Part shown: piece after piece, positions 3,298 through 16,444 of the stretch | Position numbering within the stretch: the stretch's first letter is position 1 | Layout: every line of letters begins with the position of its first letter | Source of the DNA: Devosia sp. 66-22 | Lineage (GTDB): Bacteria > Pseudomonadota > Alphaproteobacteria > Rhizobiales > Devosiaceae | NCBI GenBank assembly: GCA_001899065.1 | Contig: MKUZ01000014.1 | Coordinates: 1 to 54,971 of the forward strand | Reading direction: 5' to 3' | Length of the DNA stretch: 54,971 nucleotides | Notes under the pieces: model-generated | Told to the model about the DNA's origin: nothing | Seen by the model: only the letters and a program-made list of their open reading frames with translations | Databases searched by the model: none | Translations under genes and position numbers: made by a program

Positions 3298-4149
3298 CTA
3301 GGCGTGGTAGGCCTTGACGGTCTGGCGCTGCTCGCCCAGGCCCTCGATGCCCAGATGCATGACGTTGCCGGGCTTGAGCCACACCGGCTCGGGCTTGATG
3401 CCCATGCCGACGCCCGGCGGGGTGCCGGTGGAGATGACGTCGCCGGGCTGCAGCGACATGAACTGGCTCACATAGCTGACGATCTGGACGACGTTGAAGA
3501 TCATCGTGCGGGTCGAGCCGTTCTGGTAGCGGTGGCCGTCGACTTCGAGCCACATGGAGAGGTTCTGCGGGTCGGGAATCTCGTCGGGGGTGACGAGCCA
3601 GGGGCCGATGGGGCCGAAGGTGTCGCAGCCCTTGCCCTTGTCCCACGTGCCGCCGCGCTCGGTCTGGAAATGACGCTCGGAGACGTCGTTGACGACGCAA
3701 TAGCCGGCGACGTGGTCCATGGCGTCGGCTTCGTCGACGTAGCGCGCTTCCTTGCCGATGATGATGCCGAGCTCGACTTCCCAGTCGGGCTTGATGGCAT
3801 TCTTGGGGATGACGACGTCGTCGTTGGGGCCGATGACGGCGCTGGTGGCCTTCATGAAGATGATCGGTTCGGCCGGGATCGGCGCACCGGTTTCGGCGGC
3901 GTGGTCGGCATAGTTGAGGCCGATGCAGATGAACTTGCCGACCCTGTCGACGCAGGGGCCGATGCGCTGGTTACGATCGAGGATGGGCAGCGAGGCCGGA
4001 TCGACGGCGCGGATGCGGCTCATGCCCTCGGGCGTCAGCACGAGGCCGCGCAGTTCGGGGACGACGGAGCTCAGGTCGCGATAGGTCCCGTCGGTGTGGA
4101 GGATGGCGGGCTTTTCCAGGCCCGGGGCGCCGACGCGCAGCAGTTTCAT
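3298..4149 (-). CDS. FAH-family hydrolase, probable 2,4-diketo-3-deoxy-L-fuconate hydrolase
   Basis: 283 residues with the fumarylacetoacetate hydrolase fold. A short N-terminal domain is followed by CIGLNYADHAAETG, the metal-ligand region WEVELGIIIG, and DTFGPIGPWLVTPDEIPDP; the C-terminal motif is GDVISTGTPPGVG. The family cleaves carbon-carbon bonds of acylpyruvates. The pattern closely matches hydrolases of non-phosphorylative L-fucose pathways, which yield pyruvate and L-lactate; homologues are often auto-named ureidoglycolate lyase. AGGAG precedes the ATG with good spacing. It follows gntR and a FucU-type gene on the same strand, which supports the deoxysugar role. An acylpyruvase or L-2,4-diketo-3-deoxyrhamnonate hydrolase is the alternative. 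Confidence 0.82.
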   Translation of the reverse strand: MKLLRVGAPGLEKPAILHTDGTYRDLSSVVPELRGLVLTPEGMSRIRAVDPASLPILDRNQRIGPCVDRVGKFICIGLNYADHAAETGAPIPAEPIIFMKATSAVIGPNDDVVIPKNAIKPDWEVELGIIIGKEARYVDEADAMDHVAGYCVVNDVSERHFQTERGGTWDKGKGCDTFGPIGPWLVTPDEIPDPQNLSMWLEVDGHRYQNGSTRTMIFNVVQIVSYVSQFMSLQPGDVISTGTPPGVGMGIKPEPVWLKPGNVMHLGIEGLGEQRQTVKAYHA

Positions 4150-4228
4150 GGCATGTACTCCTAGTGTAGCGCCGCCCTAGCGGCAGCCCCGCGCGAAAGC
4201 GAGGGCGACTTTGGGCGAATGGGTTCGG

Positions 4229-4660
4229 TCAGGCGGGACGAATGACGCCCTTCTTGAGCAGGATATTGCCGTAGAGCCGGCGCTCGCCGGTCTGGACGAT
4301 GACGAAGGCCTGCGACGCCCGCTCGTAGAACTCGTAGCGCTCGAGCAGAGCGAGCTTCATGGCCGGCTCGTACTTTCTGACCAGCTTGTCGAATTCCTTG
4401 TGCGTCTGCTCGCGCTTTCTCGGATTGCCGACGACCTCCATGGCGAAGGCCTGCTCCTCGACGAAATCGTCGAGCGGCAGGAGGCTCAGCACAGCGTCGG
4501 CGACGTCGGTGGCGAGCAGACCGTCGAGCCGGATCACGGGCGGACCGGCGCTCTCGGCGGGATAATTGGCGTCGACGATGACGATCTCGTCGCCATGGCC
4601 CATGGCGCGCAGGGCGTGCAGCAAATCGGGGCTGAGAATGGGCGGAATGTTCTTGAGCAT
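4229..4660 (-). CDS. RbsD/FucU family sugar mutarotase
   Basis: 143 residues, the usual size of FucU/RbsD. Diagnostic segments are the N-terminal MLKNIPPILSPDLLHALRAM, then GHGDEIVIVDANYPAES, which carries the conserved His and Asp of the active site, and the C-terminal YGNILLKKGVI. These proteins interconvert the anomers of L-fucose (FucU) or D-ribose (RbsD). The PAESAG and RLDGL segments favour the FucU side, but substrate is not certain. It starts 6 bases after gntR and lies 79 bases before the FAH-family hydrolase on the same strand, so all three are probably one transcript. Confidence 0.85.
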   Translation of the reverse strand: MLKNIPPILSPDLLHALRAMGHGDEIVIVDANYPAESAGPPVIRLDGLLATDVADAVLSLLPLDDFVEEQAFAMEVVGNPRKREQTHKEFDKLVRKYEPAMKLALLERYEFYERASQAFVIVQTGERRLYGNILLKKGVIRPA

Positions 4661-4666
4661 GGGGCC

Positions 4667-5410
4667 TCAGTCGAAAAGGGCGATGTCGTCGGCAAGCCGC
4701 TCGGCATCGGCGAAGAGATCGGGAGCGGTTTTGGCAAAGGCGAGGAGCTCGCCGGTGACCTTGTCGATATGGCGGCGCATGGCGGCCACGGCGCGCTCGG
4801 CGTCGCCGGCCGCAATACCGTCGGCGATGGCCTTGTGCTCGGCCTGGGTGGCGGTGAGGCGGCGCGGATCGAGGATCAGCAGCCGGGCGCGGTCGAGATT
4901 GGCGCGGGCGCTGTCGATGACGGCGCGGATGCGCGAGAAATCCATCGCCTCGAACAGGATTTCGTGGAACTCGACGTCGAAGCGATGGAAGGTCTCGCGG
5001 TCGCCCTTGCGCGCGGCGCGCGCCTGCTCGGCCAGGTTGCGCTCGAGTTCCTCGACAATACCCTCGGGGCGGCGCGCCATGAGGACGCGGATCGCCTCGC
5101 TCTCGAGCGCCTTGCGGATCAGCATGTATTCGACCACGTCAGCGATGCGGACGCGCGACACCATCGAGCCGCGCTGCGGCATGATTTCGACCAGCCCCTC
5201 GGACTGGAGACGCGCCAGGGCCTCGGAGACGGGGAAGCGCGACACGCCCAGCCGCTCGCAGATGGCACCCTTGTCGAGGATTTCGCCCGGCTTGAGCTCA
5301 AGCGTGACGATGGCGCGCCGGAGCTCGGCGGTGACGGACGCCGTGACGTTGCCGCGCTCGGGAGGCGTGGCATTGACCAGAAATTTGTACGGGATTTCCG
5401 TCGTGGACAT
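4667..5410 (-). CDS. GntR family regulator, FadR/FCD subfamily
   Basis: 247 residues. The N-terminal winged helix (about residues 20-85) includes LKPGEILDKGAICERLGVSR and SEALARLQSEGLVEIMPQRG. The C-terminal all-helical FCD domain carries the metal-ligand pattern expected for carboxylate-binding members (FDVEFHEILFEAM and the later AMRRHIDKV). FCD regulators usually sense sugar acids or organic acids. A perfect palindrome CTAACATGTTAG lies two bases upstream of its start codon, so it probably represses itself and the divergent dehydratase operon. The same palindrome occurs three times before the L-lactate dehydrogenase at 15272. Confidence 0.93.
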   Translation of the reverse strand: MSTTEIPYKFLVNATPPERGNVTASVTAELRRAIVTLELKPGEILDKGAICERLGVSRFPVSEALARLQSEGLVEIMPQRGSMVSRVRIADVVEYMLIRKALESEAIRVLMARRPEGIVEELERNLAEQARAARKGDRETFHRFDVEFHEILFEAMDFSRIRAVIDSARANLDRARLLILDPRRLTATQAEHKAIADGIAAGDAERAVAAMRRHIDKVTGELLAFAKTAPDLFADAERLADDIALFD

Positions 5411-5411
5411 G

Positions 5412-5423
5412 CTAACATGTTAG
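5412..5423. promoter_or_regulatory. GntR-type operator, CTAACATGTTAG
   Basis: A perfect 12-bp palindrome lies in the 81-base divergent region between gntR and the uxaA-type gene, immediately next to the gntR start. FadR/FCD regulators bind short palindromes of this size. Three identical copies lie at 15185-15234. Assignment to the neighbouring GntR protein is inference from adjacency. Confidence 0.8.
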
Positions 5424-5490
5424 TTGGTAGCGGCCGGTTGAGCAACCGCCGCACATGTCCTTACCCCCGAGATCGTCAATGTCCGAAGTC

Positions 5491-7029
5491 ATGTCCCGCC
5501 CTGCCGCCAAGACGCTGCTGCTGAACCCGCAAGACAATGTGGCGGTGGCGCTCAGCAATCTCGATGCCGGGATGGAGACGCCGCAGGGGGTGGTGACGAG
5601 CAAGCGCGTGCCGCGCGGCCACAAATTCGCGGTGCGACCGATCGGCGCGGGCGAGGCGGCGGTCAAGTTCGGCCAGATCATCGGCTTTGCCAAGGACGGC
5701 ATTCCGGCCGGCGAGTGGGTGCACGAGCATAATTGCGGCATCGGCGAGGAGCACGGGGCGTTCGAGCGCGACTATGCGTTCGGCGAGGGCGTGGTGCCGG
5801 TGGAGTTCTTCACCGGCGCTGAGCAGGCGACGTTCCAGGGCTACAAGCGGTCGAACGGGCAGGTGGGGACACGCAATTATGTGGGCGTGCTGACCTCGGT
5901 GAACTGCTCGACGACGGTGGCCGGGTTCATCGTCAAGGAGATCGAGCGCTCGGGGATCCTCGACGACTATCCCAACATCGACGGCATCATCGCGCTCAAG
6001 CAGTCGAACGGCTGCATCGTCGATTATCGTGGCGTGATCTTCGACACGCTCAAGAAGACCACCTGGGGCTATGCCACCAACCCGAACATGGGTGGCGTGG
6101 TGATGGTGGGGCTGGGCTGCGAGGGCTTCCAGATCCCCAAGCTCAAGGAAGCCTACGGGGTCACCGAGAACGAGACGTTCCGCACCATGACCATCCAGGA
6201 AGTGGGCGGGACGAAAAAGACCGTCGAGGCCGGCGTCGAGGCGGTGAAGGCGATGCTGCCGGTGGTCAACCGGGCACGGCGCGAGACGGCGCCGGCAAGC
6301 GAATTGATGCTGGCGCTGCAATGCGGCGGGTCGGACGGCTATTCGGGCATCACGGCGAACCCGGCGCTGGGCTATGCGGCCGATATCCTGGTGCGGCATG
6401 GCGGCACTGCGATCCTCAGCGAGACGCCCGAAATCTACGGCGCCGAGCACCTGCTGACGCGGCGGGCGCGGACCCGCGAGGTGGGCGAGAAGCTCATCGA
6501 CATCATCCATTGGTGGGAGGACTACACCAAGCGGAACAATATGGAGATGAACAACAACCCCTCGCCGGGCAACAAGCTGGGCGGGCTGACGACGATCCTC
6601 GAGAAATCGCTGGGTGCGGCGGCCAAGGGCGGCACGACGCCGCTCAACGCGGTCTATCACTATGCCGATCCGGTGACCGAGAAGGGTTTCGTGTTCATGG
6701 ACACGCCGGGCTACGACCCGGTATCGGCGACGGGGCAGGTGGCGGGCGGCGCCAATGTGCTGGCCTTCACCACCGGCCGCGGCTCGGCCTATGGCTGCAA
6801 GCCCACGCCCTCGATCAAGATCGCGACGAACTCCGAAATCTATCGCCACATGATCGACGACATGGACATCAATGGCGGCGAGGTGGTCGAGGGCTCGAGC
6901 CTCGAGCAGAAGGGGCAGGAGATCTTCGACATGATTCTCCGCGTTGCCTCCGGGGAGCAAACCAAGTCGGAACAGCTCGGCTATGGCGACAACGAGTTCG
7001 TCCCCTGGCACATTGGAGCGACGGTCTAG
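5491..7029 (+). CDS. UxaA-family altronate/L-fuconate-type dehydratase
   Basis: 512 residues from the chosen ATG, close to E. coli UxaA. The N-terminal SAF-like domain (about residues 1-85) contains the conserved GHKFAVRPI. The catalytic part includes YKRSNGQVGTRNYVGVLTSV, GCIVDYRGV, GLGCEGFQ, QCGGSDGYSGITANPALG, ETPEIYGAEHLLTRRA and the C-terminal TGRGSAYGCKPTPSIKIATN. Such Fe-dependent lyases dehydrate sugar acids to 2-keto-3-deoxy acids. The frame is open to ATGs at 5479 and 5455; MSRPAAKTLLLN fits family N-termini best. It is divergent from gntR and followed by an aldo/keto reductase. Given the FAH hydrolase and mutarotase nearby, L-fuconate or another 6-deoxy acid is a plausible substrate; altronate is the default. 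Confidence 0.85.
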   Translation: MSRPAAKTLLLNPQDNVAVALSNLDAGMETPQGVVTSKRVPRGHKFAVRPIGAGEAAVKFGQIIGFAKDGIPAGEWVHEHNCGIGEEHGAFERDYAFGEGVVPVEFFTGAEQATFQGYKRSNGQVGTRNYVGVLTSVNCSTTVAGFIVKEIERSGILDDYPNIDGIIALKQSNGCIVDYRGVIFDTLKKTTWGYATNPNMGGVVMVGLGCEGFQIPKLKEAYGVTENETFRTMTIQEVGGTKKTVEAGVEAVKAMLPVVNRARRETAPASELMLALQCGGSDGYSGITANPALGYAADILVRHGGTAILSETPEIYGAEHLLTRRARTREVGEKLIDIIHWWEDYTKRNNMEMNNNPSPGNKLGGLTTILEKSLGAAAKGGTTPLNAVYHYADPVTEKGFVFMDTPGYDPVSATGQVAGGANVLAFTTGRGSAYGCKPTPSIKIATNSEIYRHMIDDMDINGGEVVEGSSLEQKGQEIFDMILRVASGEQTKSEQLGYGDNEFVPWHIGATV

Positions 7030-7031
7030 AA

Positions 7032-8069
7032 ATGGATCTGCGGCGGCTCGGCAATAGCGGTACGATCGTCACCGCGTGGTGCCTGGGCACCATGACGTTC
7101 GGCAAGGAAGCCGACGAGGCGGCATCGTTCGCGATCATGGACGCCTATGCGAAGGCGGGCGGCAATTTCCTCGACACGGCGGACGTCTATTCGGGCGGCG
7201 CCAGCGAGACCATCGTGGGACGCTGGCTCAAGGCGCGGCCGACCGAAGCGCAGCAGATGGTGGTGGCGACCAAGGCGCGGTTTCCGACGGGCACAGGCCC
7301 CAACGATATCGGGCTCAGTCGCCGACACCTGGGCGTGGCGCTCGACGCGTCGCTCGCGCGGCTCGGCGTCGAGCGGATCGACCTCTACCAGATGCATGCC
7401 TGGGACGCGCTGACGCCGCTCGAGGAGACGCTGCGTTTCCTCGACGACGCGGTGCGCGCCGGCAAGATCGGCTATTACGGCTTCTCCAATTATGTGGGCT
7501 GGCAGGTGACCAAGGCGGCGCAGATTGCGCAGCGCCAGCAGTTCGCAGCGCCGGTGACGCTGCAGCCGCAATACAATCTGTTGATGCGCGATGTGGAGCT
7601 CGAAGTGGTGCCGGCCTGCCTCGATGCGGGCATCGGGCTGCTGCCGTGGTCGCCGCTGGCGGGCGGCTGGCTCACCGGCAAGTACCGGCGCGACCAGTTT
7701 CCGACGGGCGCCACGCGGCTGGGCGAAGACCCCAAGCGCGGCGGCGAGGCCTATGAGCCGCGCGCCGCGCAGGAGCGGACCTGGGCGGTGCTCGCGGCCC
7801 TGGAGGCGGTGGCGGCGGCGCGCGGGGTCAGCATGGCGGAAATGGCGCTGGGCTGGCTGGTCGACCGGCCGAGCGTGACCTCGGTGATCCTCGGCGCGCG
7901 CACGGTTGCGCAGCTCGAGGAGAATCTCAGGGCAGCGCAGATCAAGCTGAGCGCCGACGAGATCGAGGCGCTCGATGCGCCGAGCCGGCCGCCGGTGACG
8001 GACTATCCCTATGGGCCGGGCGGCACCAGGCAGCGCATCCGGCCGGTGGCCGGAGGACGCGCGCATTGA
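7032..8069 (+). CDS. Aldo/keto reductase
   Basis: 345 residues, a full (alpha/beta)8 AKR barrel. Visible motifs are LGTMTFG at the N-terminus, the catalytic Asp/Tyr region NFLDTADVYSGGASE, the later LYQMHAWD in place of the usual H-x-W/H strand, YYGFSNYVGWQ, QPQYNLLMRDVE and the NADP-binding SVILGARTVAQLEENLRA. It begins 2 bases after the dehydratase stop, so it belongs to the same operon. In a non-phosphorylative deoxysugar pathway an AKR could act as the sugar 1-dehydrogenase (some known L-fucose dehydrogenases are AKRs) or as a carbonyl reductase. The sequence alone does not decide. Confidence 0.85.
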   Translation: MDLRRLGNSGTIVTAWCLGTMTFGKEADEAASFAIMDAYAKAGGNFLDTADVYSGGASETIVGRWLKARPTEAQQMVVATKARFPTGTGPNDIGLSRRHLGVALDASLARLGVERIDLYQMHAWDALTPLEETLRFLDDAVRAGKIGYYGFSNYVGWQVTKAAQIAQRQQFAAPVTLQPQYNLLMRDVELEVVPACLDAGIGLLPWSPLAGGWLTGKYRRDQFPTGATRLGEDPKRGGEAYEPRAAQERTWAVLAALEAVAAARGVSMAEMALGWLVDRPSVTSVILGARTVAQLEENLRAAQIKLSADEIEALDAPSRPPVTDYPYGPGGTRQRIRPVAGGRAH

Positions 8070-8341
8070 AGTCGGTTCGGGCGCGCATTACCGGCCGGGT
8101 GCAGGGCGTGGGGTTCCGCGCTTTCGTGGAACGGGCGGCTGCGCAATTGGGGGTTCGCGGCTGGGTGCGCAATCGTCGCGACGGCTCGGTCGAGGCGGTG
8201 ATCGCCGGCGACACGAGCAAGGTCGACGAGATGCTGACGCTGTGCTGGCAGGGACCGCCAGCCGCCAAGGTCGACGGCGTGAGCGTCGAGGAGACGACGG
8301 CGCCGAGCGCGCCGGGGTTCGAGAGCAAGCCGACGGAATAG
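8066..8341 (+). CDS. acyP: Acylphosphatase
   Basis: 91 residues, standard size. The substrate loop is GRVQGVGFRAFVERA with the catalytic Arg, followed by LGVRGWVRNRRDGSVEAVIA containing the catalytic Asn. It hydrolyses carboxyl-phosphate bonds of acyl phosphates. The start is a TTG overlapping the aldo/keto reductase stop (TTGA), so it is translationally coupled to the sugar-acid operon. A pathway role is not evident; it may simply share the transcript. Confidence 0.92.
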   Translation: MKSVRARITGRVQGVGFRAFVERAAAQLGVRGWVRNRRDGSVEAVIAGDTSKVDEMLTLCWQGPPAAKVDGVSVEETTAPSAPGFESKPTE

Positions 8342-8638
8342 AGCCATATCTCGGCCCCGTCCCACCTCCGTCTCGAGGCTTGGCCGGCTCCGCCTTCAGT
8401 CGGCTTGCATTCCCTGCGGGAATGCCTAGGCTGAGAGCATGAGCGCACGTCTTGTCATTGCTGCGATGCCGGTTCCGCGGGAGTTTCCCGTGGAAGGACG
8501 GCGACCCTAGGCTCGGACGGCGGCGTCTTCCGGGCCTGGGGCAAGGCCTATCCGACTTCGCGCGGCGCCATTTTCACATCACACGGAATTTTGACTGCCG
8601 GACGGGGCTTTGCCGCGTGCCGGAGCAGGAGCTTTGAC
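8342..8638. other. Intergenic stretch with a short hairpin, no supported gene
   Basis: About 297 bases with only short unsupported reading frames. A near-perfect hairpin (GCATTCCC at 8407-8414, GGGAATGC at 8418-8425) could end the upstream operon, although no T-run follows. The last 20 bases hold the ribosome binding site (GGAG/CAGGAG) of the Rnk-like gene. Confidence 0.5.
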
Positions 8639-9079
8639 ATGACCACCATCACTCTCTCCGAACTTCGCCTGTCGCCGCCGCTCACGCTGGCGCGCAGCGA
8701 CCATCAGCAACTGGCGCGACTGGCGCTCGCAGGCAGCGGGCACAGCGCCGACGCGGCCGACGATCTGCTCTACGAGCTCGACCGCGCGCAGATCGTCGAC
8801 GATCCCAAGATGCCGACCGATGTCGTGCGCATGGGCTCGCGCGTGCGGTTCCACACGGGGCGCGACGAACGGCACGTGACGCTGGTGTGGCCGGCGGAAG
8901 CCGATATCGCCGAACGCCGCGTCTCGGTGCTGACGCCGGTGGGGACAGCGCTGCTCGGCCTCAGATCCGGGCAGTCGATCACGTTCCGCACGCGCGACGG
9001 GCGGCCGCAGATGCTGACCGTGCTGGGCGTGTTGCCGCCCGAAGGCGAGCACGACGATGACGGGCCGCGGGCGGCGTGA
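8639..9079 (+). CDS. Rnk/GreA-C-type RNA polymerase-binding protein
   Basis: 146 residues, matching nucleoside diphosphate kinase regulator (Rnk)-like proteins. A helical N-terminal part (LTLARSDHQQLARLALAG) is followed by the GreA/GreB C-terminal FKBP-like fold, with VVRMGSRVRFHTG, VSVLTPVGTALLGLRSGQSI and a hydrophobic VLGVLPP end. These proteins bind the secondary channel region of RNA polymerase and lack the full GreA coiled coil. CAGGAG precedes the ATG. It appears monocistronic, with a strong hairpin downstream. Confidence 0.85.
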   Translation: MTTITLSELRLSPPLTLARSDHQQLARLALAGSGHSADAADDLLYELDRAQIVDDPKMPTDVVRMGSRVRFHTGRDERHVTLVWPAEADIAERRVSVLTPVGTALLGLRSGQSITFRTRDGRPQMLTVLGVLPPEGEHDDDGPRAA

Positions 9080-9109
9080 GTCGCCGGCAATTGTCCACAA
9101 CTGAGTTCG

Positions 9110-9140
9110 GCCCTGCCGGAACCGCGAGGTCCGGCAGGGC
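9110..9140. terminator. Strong hairpin after the rnk-like gene
   Basis: Perfect 11-bp arms GCCCTGCCGGA (9110-9120) and TCCGGCAGGGC (9130-9140) enclose a 9-base loop, 30 bases past the stop codon. No clear T-run follows, so the terminator call rests on stem strength and position. Confidence 0.6.
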
Positions 9141-9230
9141 ATTGGCCTGTCATATTTGTGTCGGCCAAAGGTCACGCGGCGGCCAAGCGTCCTAGTTAAC
9201 AAGGCGTGACATCCACTTCAGGAGACTGCC

Positions 9231-9446
9231 ATGCGTGCTTCTGAGTTTTCGACCAATCATCTGACTGCCCGCGCGACCAGCGGCCGGCGTCTCGATATCC
9301 GCTACGACCCGCGAACCAACGCCCTCGTGTTTCTCGAGGACGACTGGACGGCGGACGGGCGGGGCGGCGCGACGCCGCGCAGCGCGTTCCGCGAACAGCT
9401 CGACACGGCAAAGGTCCGCCGCCTGCCACGCCGCCGCGCCGCCTGA
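9231..9446 (+). CDS. Small hypothetical protein, 71 residues
   Basis: I do not recognise this protein. It has a clear ribosome binding site (CAGGAG at 9217-9222, 8 bases before the ATG). The composition is basic with a mixed middle (LDIRYDPRTNALVFLEDDW) and an Arg-rich tail (VRRLPRRRAA). There is no signal peptide or membrane segment. It lies alone between the Rnk-like gene and gabD. Confidence 0.6.
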   Translation: MRASEFSTNHLTARATSGRRLDIRYDPRTNALVFLEDDWTADGRGGATPRSAFREQLDTAKVRRLPRRRAA

Positions 9447-9548
9447 GGGGCAGCCGGCCTGGTTTCTGTTTTTCGGGCGGCTCCGCACGGGAAATCCGTG
9501 GCCACTTTTGCGCGGAAGCGTTCTAGTCTCCCCCAAAAGGAGGCAGAC

Positions 9549-11021
9549 ATGCCCGTGACCGAAGCGCTCACCAAGCATCTCAAGTTCAGCGACATCGTGC
9601 CCGGCGCCGGGCTGGTCGGCGGCGAGTGGGTGCCGCGCGCCTCGGACGGCAAGCTGTTCGAGGTGACCAACCCGTCCAATGGCGATTTGCTGGCGGTGCT
9701 GCCCGACATGGGCGTGGCCGAGGCGCGGCGCGCCATCGCGCTGGCCGAAGCCGCGCAGACCGAGTGGGCCCGAAAGACCGGCAAGGCGCGCGCGGCGATC
9801 CTGCGCCGGCTGTACGACCTGATGATGCAGCACCAGGACGACCTCGCCGCGATCATGACGGCCGAGCAGGGCAAGCCGCTCGCCGAGGCCAGGGGCGAGA
9901 TCGCCTATGGCGCGGCCTATGTCGAATGGTTCGGCGAGGAGGCCAAGCGGGTCTATGGCGACACCATTCCCGGCCATCAGGAAGACAAGCGGATCATCGT
10001 GATCAAGCAGCCGGTGGGCGTGGTGGCGACGATCACGCCGTGGAATTTCCCCAACGCCATGCTGGCGCGCAAGATGGCGCCGGCGCTGGCGGTGGGCTGC
10101 GCGGTGGTGAGCAAACCGGCGCAGGAAACGCCGCTGTCGGCGCTGGCGCTGGGCAAGCTGGCCGAGATGGCCGGCCTGCCCAAAGGGCTGTTCAGCGTGA
10201 TCCCCTCGACGCAGAGCGCGGCGATCGGCATGGAATTCTGTTCCAATGCGATCGTCAAGAAGCTGAGCTTCACCGGGTCGACCGAGGTGGGGCGCATCCT
10301 GATGCGGCAAGGGGCCGAGCAGATCAAGCGACTGAGCCTCGAGCTGGGCGGCAATGCGCCGTTCATCGTGTTCGACGATGCCGACCTCGATGCGGCGGTC
10401 GAGGGCGCGATGATCAGCAAATACCGCAATAACGGACAGACCTGCGTGTGCGCCAACCGGCTCTATGTGCAGGCGGGAGTCTACGATGCGTTCGCGGACA
10501 AGCTCGTGGCGGCGACGCGGAAGCTCAAGGTCGGCGACGGGTTCGGCGAGGGCGTGACGACGGGGCCGCTGATCGACAGGAAGGCGGTCGAGAAGGTGGA
10601 GCGGCACCTCGCCGATGCGACGGCCAAGGGTGGCAGGGTGCTTCTGGGCGGCAAGGCGAAGGAGGGGCTGTTCTTCGAGCCGACGATCGTTGCCGGCGCG
10701 ACGGCCGAGATGGTGCTGGCGCGCGAGGAGACGTTCGGCCCGGTGGCGCCGCTGTTCAGGTTCGAAACCGAGGACGAGGTGATCCGGCTCGCCAACGCCA
10801 CGGAGTTCGGACTGGCGTCGTATTTCTATGCGCGCGACCTGTCGCGGGTGTTCCGGGTGGCGGAGGCGCTCGACTACGGCATGGTGGGGATCAATACGGG
10901 GCTGATCTCAACCGAGGTCGCGCCGTTCGGCGGGGTGAAGCAGTCGGGCCATGGCCGCGAGGGCAGCAAATACGGGACGGCGGACTATCTCGACATCAAG
11001 TATCTGAGCATTGCGATTTAG
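9549..11021 (+). CDS. gabD: NAD(P)-dependent succinate-semialdehyde dehydrogenase (GabD type)
   Basis: 490 residues, typical of the aldehyde dehydrogenase superfamily and the GabD subgroup. Visible elements are the cofactor segment ITPWNFPNAMLARKMAPALA, the FTGSTEVGRILM glycine turn, the catalytic Glu in LELGGNAPFIVF, the catalytic Cys299 in NNGQTCVCANR, and ETFGPVAPLF near the C-terminus. It oxidises succinate semialdehyde to succinate in 4-aminobutyrate breakdown; glutarate semialdehyde or another aldehyde is possible. An AAGGAGG ribosome binding site precedes the ATG. No transaminase (gabT) lies beside it. Confidence 0.88.
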   Translation: MPVTEALTKHLKFSDIVPGAGLVGGEWVPRASDGKLFEVTNPSNGDLLAVLPDMGVAEARRAIALAEAAQTEWARKTGKARAAILRRLYDLMMQHQDDLAAIMTAEQGKPLAEARGEIAYGAAYVEWFGEEAKRVYGDTIPGHQEDKRIIVIKQPVGVVATITPWNFPNAMLARKMAPALAVGCAVVSKPAQETPLSALALGKLAEMAGLPKGLFSVIPSTQSAAIGMEFCSNAIVKKLSFTGSTEVGRILMRQGAEQIKRLSLELGGNAPFIVFDDADLDAAVEGAMISKYRNNGQTCVCANRLYVQAGVYDAFADKLVAATRKLKVGDGFGEGVTTGPLIDRKAVEKVERHLADATAKGGRVLLGGKAKEGLFFEPTIVAGATAEMVLAREETFGPVAPLFRFETEDEVIRLANATEFGLASYFYARDLSRVFRVAEALDYGMVGINTGLISTEVAPFGGVKQSGHGREGSKYGTADYLDIKYLSIAI

Positions 11022-11122
11022 CGGTGGGCGCGACGCGGTTCGTGCCAGACCCAAGCCCCCACCCACCGGCTTCGCCGGTCCCCCCTCCCCGGACGGGAGG
11101 ATGGGCTCCGCGCACGTGGCGG

Positions 11123-11512
11123 CTATTTCGAGACCTTGAACCAGGGGTCGATGCCGTAGTTCCAGACGAGCTCGTCGCCGGGCGCGATGTCGGCGATGGT
11201 CTCGATGCACAGGACATCGCCCTCGATGTCGGACTCGATCTTGCAGTTGGGCTTGTCGGAGTGGTTGAGCAGGCCCGCATAGCCGAGCGGGAAGGCGTGG
11301 ACGTAGGGCGGCTCGTCCCACTGGAAGGGGTAGTGGCTGAGCACCGTCGAGCGATCGAGCCGGTCCTTCTTCTTCATTTTGATGACCGGGCCGGCCTCGA
11401 CGATCGTGCCCTTGCTGATGGCGCGCGTGGCGACGACGCCGCGGCCCTTGCCCTTGATCGGGACGAGTTCGAGAAGGCCGGGCTCGGGATGGACGATCTT
11501 GGCTGCGGACAC
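11123..11512 (-). CDS. Small SET-domain protein
   Basis: 129 residues, essentially one SET domain. KGRGVVATRAISKGTIVEAG forms the first strands, LLNHSDKPNC is the NHS/cofactor knot motif, and DELVWNYG the catalytic-Tyr motif. SET proteins transfer methyl groups to protein lysines; the bacterial target is unknown. The start is a GTG with a weak ribosome binding site. It is convergent with gabD; the gap 11022-11122 holds GC-rich inverted repeats (around ACCGGCTTCGCCGGT) that may end both transcripts. Confidence 0.85.
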   Translation of the reverse strand: MSAAKIVHPEPGLLELVPIKGKGRGVVATRAISKGTIVEAGPVIKMKKKDRLDRSTVLSHYPFQWDEPPYVHAFPLGYAGLLNHSDKPNCKIESDIEGDVLCIETIADIAPGDELVWNYGIDPWFKVSK

Positions 11513-11573
11513 GATGTGGACTGCTTTCGGATTGGAGCGCGGCGACGCTCATAGCCCACTCCCGCCATCGCCT

Positions 11574-11990
11574 CTAGTGGCGATGTGCGTGTTGCAGCGG
11601 TGCGGCGCCGGCGAGGCTCTCGATGATGGGGCAGTCGGGCCGGTTGTCGCCATCGCAGCAATGGGCGAGGTGGGAGAGCGTGGCGCGCATTTCGCCCAGG
11701 AGCGCGATCTTCTGGTCGAGCTCGGCGATGTGGCTGAGGGTGAGCGCCTTGACGTCGCGGCTTTCGCGCCCGCGGTCGCCCCACAGATGGAGCAGGTCGC
11801 GGATCTCCTCGATCGAAAAGCCCAGGTCGCGGGCGCGGCGGATGAAGCCCAGCCGGTGAACGTCCTCGGCGCCGTAGTCGCGATAATTGGAATCGCGGCG
11901 GTCGGCCGCGGGGATCAGGCCGATCGATTCGTAGTGACGGATCATTTTCGCCGACACGCCCGTTGCCCTGCTGGCTTCACCGATCTGCAT
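11574..11990 (-). CDS. cueR: Cu(I)-responsive MerR-family regulator CueR
   Basis: 138 residues. An N-terminal MerR winged helix (MQIGEASRATGVSAKMIRHY; SNYRDYGAEDVHRLGFIRRA) is followed by a coiled-coil dimer helix and a C-terminal metal loop CCDGDNRPDCPIIESL, matching the paired Cys of CueR. The His-rich tail is common in alphaproteobacterial members. The frame is open further upstream, but MQIGEAS is the family N-terminus. It activates the divergent copper ATPase by distorting a promoter with a 19-bp spacer, which is present at 12009-12039. Confidence 0.94.
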   Translation of the reverse strand: MQIGEASRATGVSAKMIRHYESIGLIPAADRRDSNYRDYGAEDVHRLGFIRRARDLGFSIEEIRDLLHLWGDRGRESRDVKALTLSHIAELDQKIALLGEMRATLSHLAHCCDGDNRPDCPIIESLAGAAPLQHAHRH

Positions 11991-12008
11991 TTTTCCTATC
12001 TCCGGCTC

Positions 12009-12040
12009 TTGACCTTCCAATGATGGGAAGGTGCATATCA
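12009..12040 (+). promoter_or_regulatory. CueR-type promoter/operator of the copper ATPase
   Basis: The -35 TTGACC (12009-12014) and -10 CATATC (12034-12039) are separated by 19 bp, the over-long spacer of MerR-activated promoters. The spacer holds the dyad ACCTTCC (12012-12018) and GGAAGGT (12026-12032), the classic CueR box. Confidence 0.9.
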
Positions 12041-12075
12041 TTCGTCAAGAGGGGCGACCCCGACGGAGATTTCAT

Positions 12076-14700
12076 ATGGCGCACGAGCATCACACCCACC
12101 ATCACCCCAAGAACGAGGCGCAGACGGCGATCGATCCCGTGTGCGAAATGGTGGTCGATCCCGCGACCGCGCGTTCGGCCGAGGTGAGAGGCAAGACCTA
12201 TTACTTCTGCTCGGAAGGCTGCCGCACCAAGTTCGTGGCCGATCCCGACAAATATCTCAACCGCACGCCCTTCGTGCTGCCGCCCAGGACGGCCGCGGCC
12301 CCGGCGCCGCACAAGCATGCCGACGGCAGCGATTGCGGCTGCGAGACGGATGCGGGCAAGGGGCACGACCACCACGATCATGCGCCCAAGGCGGCGGACA
12401 AGGCGACCGATCCGGTGTGCGGGATGACGGTCAATCCGGCGACCGCCCGCTCGGCGGACGTACGGGGCGAGACCTATTACTTCTGCTCGGAGGGCTGCCG
12501 AACCAAGTTCGTGGCCGACCCCGACAAGTATCTCAGCGGCGCGGCGAAGGACCATCACCATGGCGCGCCGGCAATCCCGGCCTCGGCCGTGCCGGCAGGC
12601 TCCAAGTGGACGTGCCCGATGCACCCCGAGATCGTCAAGGACGGGCCGGGCGACTGCCCGATCTGCGGCATGGCGCTCGAGCCGATGGTGGCCTCGCTCG
12701 ACGACGCGCCCAACCCCGAGCTGGCCGACTTCACGCGCCGGCTGATCGTGAGTGCGGCGCTGAGCGTGCCGATCGTCCTGCTGGCGATGGGCAGCATGAT
12801 CGGGCTGCCGTTCCGCGAATGGATCGGCGAGCGCAACGCATTGTGGGCGGAACTCGTGCTGGCAACGCCGGTGGTGCTCTGGGCGGCGTGGCCGTTCTTC
12901 CGCCGGTTCGTGGCGTCGCTGCGCAACCGCTCCCCCAATATGTGGACGCTGATCGGGCTGGGCGTGGGCGCTGCCTATATGTTCTCGGTGGTGGCGGTGG
13001 TGGCACCGCAACTGTTCCCGATGACGGCGGGGCATGCCGGGCCACCGGTGTATTTCGAGGCGGCGGCGGTGATCATCACGCTGGTCTTCGTCGGCCAGGT
13101 GCTGGAGCTGCGCGCCCGCGAGGCGACCGGCAAGGCGATCCGCGCCCTGCTCGACCTCGCGCCCAAGACGGCACGGCGGATCGTCAATGGCCGCGAGGAA
13201 GACGTGTCGCTTGACCAGGTGGCGGCAGGCGACCTGCTGCGCGTCCGGCCGGGCGAGGCGGTACCGGTCGACGGCGAAGTGACCGACGGCGAGTCCGACG
13301 TCGACGAATCGATGCTGACCGGCGAGCCGATCCCGGCCGAGAAGCGTCCGGGCGTCGGCGTCACGGGCGGCACGCTCAACGGCACGGGCTCGTTCGTGAT
13401 GAAGGCGACGGCGGTGGGCGCAGCGACGCGGCTCAGCCAGATCGTGGCGCTGGTGGGCACCGCGCAGCGGAGCCGCGCACCGATCCAGGCGCTGGCCGAC
13501 AAAGTGTCGGCATGGTTCGTGCCGCTGGTGGTGGCGATCGCCGTCGTGGCGTTCGTCGCGTGGATGGTGTTCACCGGCGACATCGCGCAGGCCCTGGTGG
13601 CCTCGATCAGCGTCCTGATCATCGCCTGTCCGTGTGCGCTGGGCCTCGCAACACCCATGTCGGTGATGGTGGCGACCGGTCGCGGCGCGCATGCGGGCGT
13701 GCTGGTCAAGGATGCCGAGGCGCTCGAGACGTTTGCGCGGGCCGACGTGCTGATCGTCGACAAGACCGGCACGCTGACCGAAGGCAAGCCGGTGCTGGGG
13801 CAGGTGGTGCCCGAGAAGGGCGTCGACGAGGGCTGGGTGCTCGCCGTCGCGGCCGGACTGGAACGCGGTTCTGCCCACCCGCTGGCGCATGCCGTCACCG
13901 TGGGTGCGGCGGCGCGCAATGCCAAGACACTCGAGGTGACGGGCTTCCGCTCGGTCACCGGCAAGGGTGTCACGGGCAAGCTCAAGGACGCCGTGGTCGG
14001 CCTTGGCAACAAGGCGCTGATGGATGAGCTTAACGTGCCGCTCAGCGACGCGATCCTGAAGCTCCAGGCCGAGCATGCCGGCAAGGGACGCACAGCGATG
14101 TATGTCGCCGAGGCGGGCAAGGCGATCGGTCTGCTGACCGTGACCGACCCGATCAAGGCCAATGCGAAGGCTTCCATCGCAACGCTCGCAGCCGACGGCG
14201 TGACCGTCATCATGGCGACGGGCGATGCCCGCGGCACCGCCGAGGCGGTCGGCCGTGAGCTGGGGCTCACGCAGATCGAAGCGGGGATGACGCCGGAGTC
14301 CAAGCACAACCTCGTCGTGTCGCTCAGGAAGCAAGGCAGGACGGTGGCGTTTGCCGGCGACGGCGTGAACGACGCCCCGGGCCTTGCGGCGGCCGATGTG
14401 GGCATCGCCATGGGCACCGGCGCCGATGTGGCGATCGAGTCGGCCGGCATCACGCTCCTGGGCGGCGACCTCGCCGGCGCGGTGCGGGCACGCCGGCTCG
14501 CCAAGGCGACGCTGGGCAACATCAAGCAGAACCTGTGGTTCGCCTTCGGCTACAATGCGCTGGGCGTACCGATCGCGGCGGGCGTGCTGTTCCCGCTGAC
14601 GGGCTGGCTGCTGTCGCCGATGTTCGCCGCCGCGGCGATGGCGCTGAGCTCGGTGAGCGTGATCGGCAATGCGCTGAGGCTCAACACGATCAAGCTGTGA
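12076..14700 (+). CDS. copA: Copper-transporting P1B-type ATPase with two YHS domains
   Basis: 874 residues. A His-rich N-terminus (AHEHHTHHH) leads into two near-identical YHS domains: about residues 19-60 (DPVCEM, Cys23; [12 protein letters not shown]) and 111-152 (DPVCGM, Cys115; [12 protein letters not shown]). A heavy-metal-binding motif [10 protein letters not shown] follows near residue 177, with [13 protein letters not shown]. The ATPase core has the metal site C518-P-C520, phosphorylation Asp562 in DKTGTLTEG, and [20 protein letters not shown]. There is no N-terminal HMA domain. This exports Cu(I) from the cytoplasm and is CueR-controlled. The frame is open to 12031, but GGAG precedes the ATG at 12076. 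Confidence 0.93.
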
Positions 14701-15118
14701 AGGGTCGGCCGCGCATGAAGGCGATGAGGTGAGGCGTCAGCGCGGGCTGCGACGGATGGAAGGATGGATCGGACGGCGCAGTGAGCCGTCCGATCGGGTT
14801 GAGGGCCTGGAGGAACTCGGGATCGATGGTCTCGAGGTCGACGAGGAAATTGTAGCGCGGGCCGAGGGCAAGATGACCCCGCTCGTAGGCATAGATGGCA
14901 TCGAGGCAGGCGGGGATGAGCAGCGCCGGCTCCGTCGTCCGCGGATCGGCCCCGATGTTGAGCAGATAGCCGCGCGGATCGGCGCTCGCTTCCGCCCGCA
15001 GGTCGCGGCCGGTGAAGGCACAGGCAAAGCCATAGGCGGCGTGGATCGGCGTCAGGACGTCCAGCGGCTGCTGGACCTCCCGAAACCCGCGCGGCTGCTT
15101 CGGCTTCCGCGATGCCAC
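14690..15118 (-). CDS. Hypothetical protein, faintly HNH-like, 142 residues
   Basis: Not confidently recognised. GTG start with a good ribosome binding site (GGAGGG at 15125-15130). The order of CAFTGRDL, a middle [20 protein letters not shown] and a terminal [19 protein letters not shown] recalls the C-terminal HNH domain of HNH_2-type proteins. The paired metal Cys and catalytic His are absent, so any relation would be to an inactive form. It overlaps the copA 3' end by 11 bases in the convergent orientation and runs divergently from the L-lactate dehydrogenase. Confidence 0.6.
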
Positions 15119-15184
15119 CCATTCCCTCCGTATTCTTCCGATCAGTGGTAGGGCAGAATGCGTAGGCGCGACAGGGAGGGCGAA

Positions 15185-15234
15185 CTAACATGTTAGTTGA
15201 CCACTAACATGTTAGTTGACCACTAACATGTTAG
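15185..15234. promoter_or_regulatory. Triple GntR-type operator before the L-lactate dehydrogenase
   Basis: Three perfect copies of CTAACATGTTAG start at 15185, 15204 and 15223, a strict 19-bp period. The spacers are TTGACCA, so two TTGACC elements (15197, 15216) that could act as -35 boxes lie between operators. The palindrome is identical to the single site at the gntR promoter (5412-5423). Co-regulation by that GntR protein is inferred. Confidence 0.85.
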
Positions 15235-15271
15235 TGGCGTAGAGCAGGGCCGAAATCATGGGGATGGGACG

Positions 15272-16444
15272 ATGGGTGCACTCGAGCGCGCGCTGACGAT
15301 CGAAGAGCTGAAGGCGATCGCGCGGCGGCGCGTGCCCAAGCAGTTCTTCGACTATATCGACTCGGGTGCCTATACCGAGCAGACCTACAACGCCAACGAA
15401 GCCGACTTCAAAAAGATCACCTTCCGGCAGCGCGTGGCGGTCAACCTCGAGAACCGCAATCTGGGCACGACGCTGCTCGGGCAGCCGGTGAGCCTGCCCA
15501 TCGCGATTGCGCCGGTGGGTTCGACCGGGATGACCGACGCCGACGGGGAGATCAAGGCGGCGAAGGCGGCCGAGAAATTCGGCATTCCGTTCACGCTTTC
15601 GACCATGGGCATCTGCTCGATCGAGGACGTGGCCGAGAACACCAGCAAGCCGTTCTGGTTCCAGCTCTATGTGATGCGCGACCGCGGCTTCATCGAGCGG
15701 CTGATCGATCGCGCCAAGGCGGCCAAGTGCTCTGCGCTGGTGCTGACGATGGACCTGCAGATCCTGGGGCAGCGGCACAAGGATATCCGCAGTGGGCTGA
15801 CGACGCCGCCCAGAATCACGCCGCGGTTCGTGGCCGAGATGATGCTCAAGCCGGGCTGGGCGTTCCGCATGCTGGGCACGAGGCGGCACACCTTCCGCAA
15901 CATCTCGGGGCATGTGGCGGACGCGGTCAATCTTGCCAAGCTCAGCGAGTGGACCAGAACGCAGTTCGACCTGACGCTCAACTGGACGGATATCGGCTGG
16001 ATCAAGAAACGGTTCGGCGGGCCAGTGATCGTCAAGGGCGTGCTCGATGTCGAGGACGCCAAGCTCGCGATCGCGAACGGTGCCGACGGCATCGTGGTGT
16101 CCAATCATGGCGGACGGCAGCTCGACGGCGCACCCTCGACGATCCGCGTGCTGCCCGAGATCGTTGACGCGGTGGGCCACCAGACCAAGGTGCTGATGGA
16201 TGGCGGCATCCGCTCGGGGCAGGATCTGCTCAAGGCGCTGGCGCTGGGGGCCAAGGGCGCGCTGGTGGGCCGCATCATGGCCTATGGCCTGGGCGCGGGT
16301 GGCGAAGCCGGCGTGACGCGGGCGCTGGAGATCGTGCGCAAGGAGACCGACACGTCGATGGCGCTGATGGGCGAGCGCGACATCCGCAACGTCGGACTGC
16401 ACAACATCTATTCGAACGATTTGGACCGCCGGCAGGGGTACTGA
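15272..16444 (+). CDS. lldD: FMN-dependent L-lactate dehydrogenase (LldD-type alpha-hydroxy acid oxidase)
   Basis: 390 residues, typical of the FMN-dependent alpha-hydroxy-acid dehydrogenase family. Visible features are FDYIDSGAYTEQTYNANE, PIAIAPVGSTGM, the FMN-contacting FWFQLYVMRD, the catalytic His279 in SNHGGRQLDGAPST, and DGGIRSGQDLLKALALGAKG. It oxidises L-lactate to pyruvate, passing electrons to the respiratory chain; mandelate- or glycolate-type relatives are the alternative. The upstream triple operator ties it to the GntR regulator of the sugar-acid locus. It lies alone, convergent with a toxin-antitoxin pair. Confidence 0.9.
   Translation: MGALERALTIEELKAIARRRVPKQFFDYIDSGAYTEQTYNANEADFKKITFRQRVAVNLENRNLGTTLLGQPVSLPIAIAPVGSTGMTDADGEIKAAKAAEKFGIPFTLSTMGICSIEDVAENTSKPFWFQLYVMRDRGFIERLIDRAKAAKCSALVLTMDLQILGQRHKDIRSGLTTPPRITPRFVAEMMLKPGWAFRMLGTRRHTFRNISGHVADAVNLAKLSEWTRTQFDLTLNWTDIGWIKKRFGGPVIVKGVLDVEDAKLAIANGADGIVVSNHGGRQLDGAPSTIRVLPEIVDAVGHQTKVLMDGGIRSGQDLLKALALGAKGALVGRIMAYGLGAGGEAGVTRALEIVRKETDTSMALMGERDIRNVGLHNIYSNDLDRRQGY

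Follow-up and report, generated by a model that had tools for sequence, protein, structure and literature searches.

A putative GntR operator linking a deoxysugar-acid locus to dispersed lactate-oxidation genes in Devosia sp. 66-22

Introduction

The closest described counterpart of the locus analysed here is the non-phosphorylating L-fucose route III, in which, according to excerpts of PMC11199699 and PMC6336799, a dehydrogenase, a lactonase, a dehydratase, a KDF dehydrogenase and a diketo-acid hydrolase lead to pyruvate and L-lactate; the pathway proposed below has these steps in common with it. For the dehydratase, excerpts of PMC6336799 describe a D-arabinonate dehydratase of the UxaA/GarD superfamily, with low reported activity on L-fuconate, and a predicted heteromeric L-fuconate dehydratase of P. 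mimosarum. The presence of lldD within deoxysugar regulons is already precedented: RhaR regulons with lldD or lldEFG are reported from certain Actinomycetales and Rhodobacterales in excerpts of PMC3870299, and these likewise place an L-lactate dehydrogenase under a deoxysugar regulator. As to operators, sites of the FadR subfamily usually follow the pattern NyGTNxACNy, with GT before AC; this order is usual rather than defining, and the consulted sections of PMC4494728 name NanR and BioR as exceptions.

A preliminary description of the DNA studied here, a stretch of 54,971 bases from Devosia sp. 66-22 (hereafter the window), proposed that one GntR palindrome ties a deoxysugar-acid locus to an L-lactate dehydrogenase. 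Our analysis partly supports its overall interpretation. Comparison of related genomes suggests a dispersed GntR-controlled regulon for oxidative L-fucose degradation and lactate oxidation via one operator, a reading to which we give a probability of about 0.68.

Results

Genes of the deoxysugar-acid locus

The gene identities of the window locus were confirmed as family assignments. The FAH-family hydrolase (positions 3298 to 4149, minus strand), predicted to split 2,4-diketo-3-deoxy-L-fuconate into pyruvate and L-lactate, appears to represent the 2,4-diketo-3-deoxy-acid hydrolase step of route III. Its best NCBIfam model is the 2,4-didehydro-3-deoxy-L-rhamnonate hydrolase (NF053535; 440.6 bits, under the cut-off of 500), and its closest solved structure is 8gsr, an L-2,4-diketo-3-deoxyrhamnonate hydrolase (E 1.8e-100). 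The adjacent FucU-type L-fucose mutarotase (4229 to 4660, minus strand) scores 125.2 bits with NF011949, under the cut-off of 141, versus 45.4 bits with the D-ribose pyranase model; its closest solved relatives are a FucU homologue and an L-fucose mutarotase.

A UxaA/GarD-superfamily dehydratase, the predicted L-fuconate dehydratase, is encoded at 5479 to 7029 on the plus strand (PF04295 and PF20629). Its start is uncertain, with in-frame ATG codons at 5455, 5479 and 5491, and the query used in searches spanned 5485 to 7029. The galactarate dehydratase model gives 408 bits, far under its cut-off of 730.85. Membership of the UxaA/GarD superfamily is borne out by both domains and by Cys 141, 177, 212 and 280 (numbered from 5485), which are kept in 22/22 sequences and are spaced 36/35/68, compared with 39/35/68 for Cys134/173/208/276 in the portion of PMC6336799 consulted. 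An aldo-keto reductase gene (7026 to 8066, plus strand; PF00248) lies beside the dehydratase, and the same neighbour, 87% identical, is found in the relative G092.

Copies of the palindrome in the window and genome

The palindrome CTAACATGTTAG stands at 5412 to 5423, in the gap that separates gntR from the divergent dehydratase gene and 1 bp short of the ATG of gntR, and again before lldD at 15185 to 15196, 15204 to 15215 and 15223 to 15234. Each of the four copies is a perfect 12-bp palindrome, and those before lldD form a head-to-tail repeat with a period of 19 bp that recurs in G092, G096 and G090. No further copy exists in the window; the preliminary coordinates and the claim of perfection are both correct. 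With up to two mismatches allowed, the total is still four, against a mean of 0.19 and a maximum of 2 in 100 dinucleotide-preserving shuffles of the window.

A scan of the whole genome (4,355,070 bases, 31 contigs) revealed a fifth perfect copy at C31:88625, upstream of a gene for a D-lactate/glycolate-dehydrogenase-type flavoprotein, and three copies with one mismatch; from base composition alone, about 0.03 perfect copies would be expected. No perfect site in this genome has a sugar transporter gene downstream. Relaxed-consensus matches include sites before msbA-like, xylB-like and MFS genes, whose link to the pathway is not clear. We dropped the sites on C13 (msbA-like), C7 (before the xylB-like gene) and at C19:114453 (MFS) as members, same-gene sites not having been found among the relatives' sites examined. 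The C18 site, at a FAH-type/KGSA-dehydrogenase-type pair, and the C19:127596 site, before an EamA gene, each recur in two relatives and are candidate regulon members. Genes outside the window were called by an ORF picker based on codon-position G+C, which at times joins neighbouring genes or overlooks one (GntR in L109, L138, L141, L143 and L227). In one relative, G025, a perfect site at C1:584119 (L107) has no recognised pathway genes nearby and adjoins a gene without a Pfam match.

The GntR protein and its tie to the palindrome

The predicted repressor is a GntR-family regulator of the FadR/VanR type (4667 to 5410, minus strand). Its HTH and FCD domains (PF00392 and PF07729) and its fold place it in this subfamily: the structure model has a pLDDT of 84.7, and the top Foldseek matches are 7u5q, VanR Atu1419 and TM0439. 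D145, H149, H192 and H214 are invariant in alignment A1, an Asp/His set to which we presume a metal-binding role. The order AC-AT-GT in CTAACATGTTAG departs from the usual NyGTNxACNy pattern.

Among 80 named gntR orthologues, 76 have the exact operator at the gene start, one more has it with one mismatch and three with two; the distance to gntR is the same as here at 73 of the 76 exact sites. The perfect motif is present in 96/96 family genomes with a GntR orthologue and in 7/40 without, counts that are not independent because the genomes are related. Where lldD is present and the GntR orthologue absent (32 genomes), four have a perfect motif anywhere. The 40 genomes without an orthologue include genus g15 (13 genomes), whose GntR relatives are 40-51% identical. 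Of these genomes 12/13 lack a perfect site, and where the surroundings of the GntR relatives could be read (L120-L122 in part) the adjoining genes are different, resembling ALDH and PfkB on visual inspection; we took these relatives for paralogues. These comparisons agree with the preliminary view that the palindrome probably belongs to the GntR protein. A different regulator could bind a palindrome that just adjoins gntR, and the perfect sites beside a second GntR-FCD gene in G089, G091 and G093 would suit it, as would the relaxed sites before seemingly unrelated genes; nevertheless, the co-occurrence across genomes, for all their relatedness, and a location that hardly varies with respect to the start of gntR make this extremely improbable.

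Lactate-side oxidases

The FMN L-lactate dehydrogenase of the LldD type (15272 to 16444, plus strand) scores 428.7 bits with NF008398, above the cut-off of 376, and 374.5 bits with a stricter LldD model, under its cut-off of 550. Upstream of the 30 best family lldD orthologues, the operator is perfect in 12 cases and reads CTGACATGTCAG in 9 more, while 8 have no site at up to two mismatches. The C31 flavoprotein, which the preliminary description overlooked, scores highest with the NCBIfam models GlcD (162.7 bits) and YdiJ (148.1 bits), under cut-off in both cases; 10 of its 30 best orthologues are without a site at up to two mismatches, and within the window's own genus the exact site is found in 3/14. 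In genomes G010-G026, a perfect site precedes lldD in 17/17 and the flavoprotein gene in 16/17. The comparative evidence supports a link between the deoxysugar-acid locus and lldD through one operator. As the L-fucose route yields L-lactate only, it leaves the flavoprotein without explanation.

Pathway genes on other contigs

Contig C8 encodes AKR8, an L-galactose/L-fucose-dehydrogenase-like aldo-keto reductase also overlooked earlier, preceded by the variant operator CTGACATGTTAG; CTRACATGTYAG is found before 26/30 of its orthologues, and its closest solved proteins are L-galactose dehydrogenases. A KDF-dehydrogenase orthologue at C17:453788-454513 shares 69% identity with the G011 SDR and 57% with that of a Dongia MAG, whose SDR2 is closest to the L-KDFDH structures 8y11 and 8xwk. 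This gene probably represents the L-KDF 4-dehydrogenase step of route III. No operator was found near it at up to two mismatches, and it adjoins an ABC transporter with a XylF-like binding protein (335 bits, cut-off 389.55).

No close orthologue of the COG3618 L-fuconolactonase was found in this genome (best match 33%). A COG3618 lactonase relative is present in G104 and G109; the G104 protein matches the L-fucono-1,5-lactonase model only (187.4 bits, cut-off 400), with 4dlf as best structure. Lactone opening could occur via an SMP-30 relative on C21 (52%, without an operator) or spontaneously. The prediction that a lactonase and a KDF dehydrogenase would lie elsewhere is thus borne out for the dehydrogenase and not for the lactonase. 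The expectation that a genome-wide scan would find sites at such genes and, for the perfect copies, at a sugar transporter fails in Devosia sp. 66-22 itself, whereas in relatives the lactonase, KDF dehydrogenase and sugar transporter genes do carry operators.

The FAH protein, through its best model and structure, would point to L-rhamnose and the LRA pathway in place of L-fucose, and the same 2,4-diketo acid is reached by both pathways according to excerpts of PMC11199699. However, L-fucose, the main sugar of the preliminary proposal, is favoured by the presence of FucU, by partners that resemble L-fuconolactonase and L-KDFDH, and by an AKR similar to L-galactose dehydrogenase, and we consider L-rhamnose very unlikely.

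Outgroup loci and the nature of the substrate

The 12 lowest-ranked named loci (L219-L230; outside Devosia, 6.6 to 20.7 kb each), recounted by tblastn, served as outgroup. In 12/12 the UxaA-type gene and AKR8 flank GntR, which supports the UxaA-type protein as the constant dehydratase of the locus and fits its earlier designation as a predicted L-fuconate dehydratase. The other partners are the COG3618 fuconolactonase relative (7/12), FAH (4/12), SDR2, the L-KDF-dehydrogenase relative (3/12), and FucU (1/12); lldD and the flavoprotein are absent from 12/12.

The palindrome could instead define a lactate regulon, in which an LldR-like GntR protein senses lactate and controls both lactate-type dehydrogenases, the deoxysugar genes being included as lactate producers. 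FCD regulators often sense such acids, LldR being named in the consulted part of PMC4494728, and the operator does precede both L- and D-lactate-type dehydrogenase genes in G010-G026. But the outgroup loci always have UxaA and AKR8 without either oxidase, and the LldR equivalog model gives the GntR protein 35.3 bits against a cut-off of 311, which leaves it outside LldR; we regard this explanation as doubtful.

Since FucU, FAH and SDR2 are missing from most outgroup loci, the UxaA-GntR-AKR core would also suit D-arabinose or L-galactose, and the recount slightly lowered our estimate for L-fucose and slightly raised that for these configurational relatives. Together with L-fucose, or replacing it, they would pass through the same enzymes, giving L-lactate from L-fucose, burnt by LldD, and glycolate from D-arabinose, burnt by the GlcD-like flavoprotein. 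Excerpts of PMC6336799 describe a Paraburkholderia/Herbaspirillum AKR with similar kcat/Km on D-arabinose and L-fucose, and a dehydrogenase-hydrolase pair that makes glycolate (and pyruvate) from D-KDP and lactate from L-KDF. The GlcD and YdiJ scores, although under cut-off, and the similarity of AKR8 to L-galactose dehydrogenases point the same way. So does the one-mismatch C18 site at the start of the FAH-type gene, which recurs in G087 and G090; the encoded protein is related to 2-keto-3-deoxy-D-arabinonate dehydratase (71.8 bits), with a better match, 9kkt, whose name is uninformative. This site, however, overlaps the start codon, so that some of its bases may be kept by coding constraint. 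Furthermore, separate clusters are induced by D-arabinose and L-fucose in P. mimosarum (PMC6336799, in part), and many Devosiaceae have FucU and FAH inside the gntR operon. A role for D-arabinose or L-galactose is therefore conceivable but rather unlikely.

Discussion

Under the favoured L-fucose reading, the GntR-FCD protein would bind CTRACATGTYAG, of which CTAACATGTTAG is the perfect form, most likely as a repressor, and may be released by L-fuconate, 2-keto-3-deoxy-L-fuconate or the 2,4-diketo acid. In the window, it would control gntR-fucU-FAH, the divergent UxaA-type dehydratase gene and, through three operators, lldD; on other contigs, the L-fucose-dehydrogenase-like AKR (C8) and the D-lactate/glycolate-dehydrogenase-type flavoprotein (C31). 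FucU and the AKR would turn L-fucose into the lactone, which then yields L-fuconate. The UxaA-type dehydratase would form KDF, which the C17 dehydrogenase, outside the operator set, may oxidize to the 2,4-diketo acid; FAH would release pyruvate and L-lactate, and LldD would convert the latter to pyruvate.

It is tempting to extend this scheme to one GntR switch for two substrates, L-fucose and D-arabinose, with each exit acid served by an oxidase of its own (L-lactate by LldD, glycolate or D-lactate by the GlcD/Dld-II-like flavoprotein), a route II branch of KDP dehydratase and KGSA dehydrogenase under a variant operator, and a single-chain UxaA-type L-fuconate/D-arabinonate dehydratase, but we offer this as a speculative proposal of low probability.

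For Devosiaceae and several further groups of alphaproteobacteria, the L-fucose regulon would offer an operator and a set of genes with which the oxidative use of L-fucose can be tested, and it points to a single-chain UxaA-type protein as candidate L-fuconate dehydratase. Through one regulator, the oxidation of end products (L-lactate as well as a second hydroxy acid) would be coupled to the supply of sugar although the genes are far apart, and annotators could assign functions to the AKR, the FAH protein, the flavoprotein and several transporters now named by family only.

In the open-access papers searched, CTAACATGTTAG was not found, TAACATGTTA occurred in 10 papers (unrelated, judged by title), and no description of the operator or regulon was found by title and start of abstract. 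What appears to be new is the operator, the dispersed regulon, the candidate single-chain dehydratase and the second hydroxyacid dehydrogenase; the parts are of known kinds. The regulator shares its fold and invariant Asp/His set with the FadR/VanR-type proteins TM0439, Atu1419 VanR and CGL2915, whereas its putative operator AACATGTT reads AC...GT and not GT...AC. Compared with the RhaR regulons (PMC3870299, in part), sugar, regulator and pathway differ, the RhaR pathway being phosphorylating, with RhaEW. The candidate dehydratase has superfamily and conserved cysteines in common with the enzymes described in PMC6336799 but, in contrast to the heteromeric L-fuconate dehydratase predicted in P. 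mimosarum, is one chain within a deoxysugar locus. Finally, set against route III as outlined in excerpts of PMC11199699 and PMC6336799, the candidate dehydratase is of the single-chain UxaA/GarD type rather than the enolase type, the genes are dispersed, and LldD and a D-hydroxyacid-type dehydrogenase appear to share one operator.

A GntR regulator paired with a conserved palindrome

The palindrome CTAACATGTTAG occurs in perfect form at 5412-5423, ending one base upstream of the ATG of gntR (4667-5410, reverse strand), and at 15185, 15204 and 15223, a tandem of three copies with a 19-bp period upstream of the LldD-type L-lactate dehydrogenase gene lldD (15272-16444, forward strand). The preliminary description had reported these four copies and none elsewhere in the window; our window scan reproduced them and returned no further copy even with two mismatches allowed, a stringency at which shuffled sequence gave a mean of 0.19 copies. 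The 19-bp period recurs in relatives, with two perfect copies each in the family genomes G092 and G096; in G090 one of the two copies is perfect and the other a variant.

Of 136 family genomes, 109 have a GntR match at E<=1e-40; 13 of these 109 belong to a single genus (g15) whose relatives, at 40-51%, are taken for paralogues. The exact palindrome adjoins gntR in all 30 loci examined from these family-genome matches. Of 177 relatives, the 80 best-ranked, all named loci, were compared: the palindrome is exact in 76 (at an identical distance from the gntR start in 73 of them), with a single mismatch in one locus and two mismatches in three. Every one of the 96 genomes with a GntR orthologue of at least 53% identity has the perfect motif, versus 7/40 without one, these being related genomes whose counts are not independent. 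Three of those seven (G058, G069, G094) are incomplete, and a fourth, G096, consists of 750 contigs with 7% contamination. The reversed motif gave 10 copies in total, spread over 7 of the 136 genomes, and none of 615 background tiles (280 bp, from g15 loci) held a site at up to two mismatches. Judged from these sequence comparisons, regulator and operator appear to belong together.

Both a GntR and an FCD domain are present in the regulator, and the FCD regulators that its model (pLDDT 84.7) matches include Atu1419 VanR and TM0439. Asp145, His149, His192 and His214 are invariant among 11 orthologues, a set that resembles the metal-and-acid site of FCD regulators. Since the operator adjoins the gntR start, GntR may repress its own gene from there, and a pathway acid would release it.

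Further putative members of the regulon

In the genome of Devosia sp. 66-22 (31 contigs, 4.36 Mb in total) one more perfect site, the fifth, lies at C31:88625 (C-numbers are its contigs). A one-mismatch site, CTGACATGTTAG, is on C8 upstream of the gene of an aldo-keto reductase, AKR8, to which L-galactose dehydrogenases are the closest proteins of solved structure. From base composition, this genome would be expected to have about 0.03 perfect copies, 0.13 copies with a single change (both orders together) and 0.13 with two changes. In its relaxed form, CTRACATGTYAG, the motif is seen 11 times here and 3 to 12 times in each of the 18 other genomes of the genus; its reversed control is absent from all 19. 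CTRACATGTYAG lies upstream of 26 of the 30 AKR8 orthologues examined, with one further change in 3 more, and one (locus L296) has no convincing site; given this conservation, the C8 site is very likely real.

Directly downstream of the C31 site is the gene of a 969-aa protein that combines FAD-oxidase and Fe-S domains. Its top curated models, GlcD (162.7 bits) and the D-2-hydroxyglutarate dehydrogenase YdiJ (148.1), both fall far under cut-off, and the solved structures that it matches best are those of lactate dehydrogenases and a glycolate oxidase. From these matches we call it a D-lactate/glycolate-dehydrogenase-type flavoprotein, a type label and not a substrate assignment. Exact sites precede 15 of 30 flavoprotein orthologues, with one mismatch in 2 and two in 3, and 10 have no site at up to two mismatches; within the window's genus the exact site is present in 3 of 14. 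For lldD (n=30), the exact site precedes 12 and CTGACATGTCAG 9, and 8 have none at up to two mismatches. Across G010-G026, with all sites listed, a perfect site lies directly upstream of lldD in 17/17 and of the flavoprotein gene in 16/17 (exception G016).

Several neighbours of lldD were also observed. On the far side of the three operators, and divergent from lldD, lies a gene for a 142-aa protein (14690-15118, reverse strand) that has no NCBIfam or Pfam match; homologues (51%) are equally placed in G087 (L133 2125-2547) and G096 (L147 2626-3108). Between the two regulon parts lie a CueR-type regulator gene (11574-12041, reverse strand), above model cut-off, and, divergent from it, an ORF that by eye reads as a copper P-type ATPase (12031-14700, forward strand). 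G092 carries a second LldD-type gene (L143:1225-2394, 68%) that follows, in tandem, the lldD with the operator; neighbouring LldD-type pairs also occur in G099 and G095.

Elsewhere, perfect sites adjoin an FGGY kinase gene in 5 of 7 genomes examined (G012, G014, G018, G022 and G025; not G011 or G013), the gene of the KDF (2-keto-3-deoxy-L-fuconate) dehydrogenase relative SDR2 in G011, and ABC transporter genes in G101, G093 and others. In G089 (L137), G091 (L141) and G093 (L144) a perfect palindrome directly adjoins a second, different GntR-FCD gene with ABC transporter genes, possibly a nested regulator. A perfect site in G025 (L107) has no recognised pathway gene nearby. At C19:127596 (L359:6597), CTGACATGTCAG overlaps one gene's stop codon, 73 bp upstream of an EamA transporter gene, an arrangement repeated in G090 (L365) and G092 (L366) at 67 and 69 bp; this is a possible regulon transporter.

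Identity of the sugar

The window's organism belongs with Devosiaceae: among the named GntR matches listed, the two nearest are from MAGs, one of Hyphomicrobiales (81%) and one of Devosia nanyangense (76%). At the bottom of the ranking of named loci are 12 (L219-L230, 6.6 to 20.7 kb each) that come from Labrys, Ancalomicrobiaceae, Dongia, Taklimakanibacter, Aestuariivirga and others. Eight of these 12 have a perfect operator, one has a single mismatch in it and three have two mismatches. UxaA, GntR and AKR8 are present in 12/12, a COG3618 protein in 7, FAH in 4, SDR2 in 3 and FucU in 1; lldD and the flavoprotein gene are in none of these loci, and in some, by eye, ABC transporter genes come next. 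The constant core UxaA-GntR-AKR8 would also suit D-arabinose or L-galactose.

The COG3618 protein of G104 has L-fucono-1,5-lactonase as its sole model match (187.4 bits versus a cut-off of 400) and 4dlf as best structure; in both G088 and G091 a variant site adjoins the gene of a COG3618-type amidohydrolase (28-29% to the G104 protein). The Dongia SDR best matches 8y11/8xwk, the L-2-keto-3-deoxyfuconate 4-dehydrogenase (PMC11199699). FAH (3298-4149, reverse strand) best matches 8gsr, an L-2,4-diketo-3-deoxyrhamnonate hydrolase, and the 2,4-diketo intermediate is common to the L-fucose and L-rhamnose pathways (PMC11199699). The best solved relatives of FucU (4229-4660, reverse strand) are a FucU homologue and an L-fucose mutarotase. 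Taken together, the lactonase-model, KDF-dehydrogenase, FAH and FucU matches lead us to favour L-fucose over L-rhamnose.

The lactonase and KDF dehydrogenase missing from the window had been expected elsewhere in the genome. A KDF-dehydrogenase orthologue (69%) does lie on C17, behind an ABC transporter whose binding protein is XylF-like, and has no site at up to two mismatches in the 19 kb examined. No close lactonase orthologue was found in this genome (best 33%), and an SMP-30 relative on C21 (52%) has no site.

The L-fucose route yields L-lactate only, which leaves the D-lactate/glycolate-type enzyme to be explained otherwise. D-arabinose is a candidate further substrate: it has the C2-C4 configuration in common with L-fucose and gives glycolate via like enzymes (PMC6336799). 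At C18:44719 (L012:6720), CTAACATGTCAG lies at the start codon of a FAH-type, 2-keto-3-deoxy-acid-dehydratase-like gene adjoined by a KGSA-dehydrogenase-type gene, with a variant site equally placed in G087 and G090; the fit to D-arabinose is weak because the site overlaps the start codon.

Comparison with known systems

Route III of L-fucose is already described, and lldD and lldEFG have been reported in deoxysugar regulons (PMC3870299). Neither the operator sequence, in the open-access literature searched, nor such a regulon for these bacteria, by title or abstract start, was found. The operator departs from the usual FadR-subfamily pattern as given in PMC4494728. The window dehydratase (5479-7029, forward strand) belongs to the UxaA/GarD superfamily (galactarate dehydratase model 408 bits versus a cut-off of 730.85). 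Its Cys 141, 177, 212 and 280 (counted from 5485), conserved in 22/22 sequences, have a spacing near that of the four conserved cysteines given in PMC6336799. One relative dehydrates D-arabinonate, and L-fuconate weakly; a heteromeric one was predicted as an L-fuconate dehydratase from gene context (PMC6336799). The proposal in the preliminary description that the single-chain UxaA-type protein is an L-fuconate dehydratase is plausible and partly foreshadowed in print.
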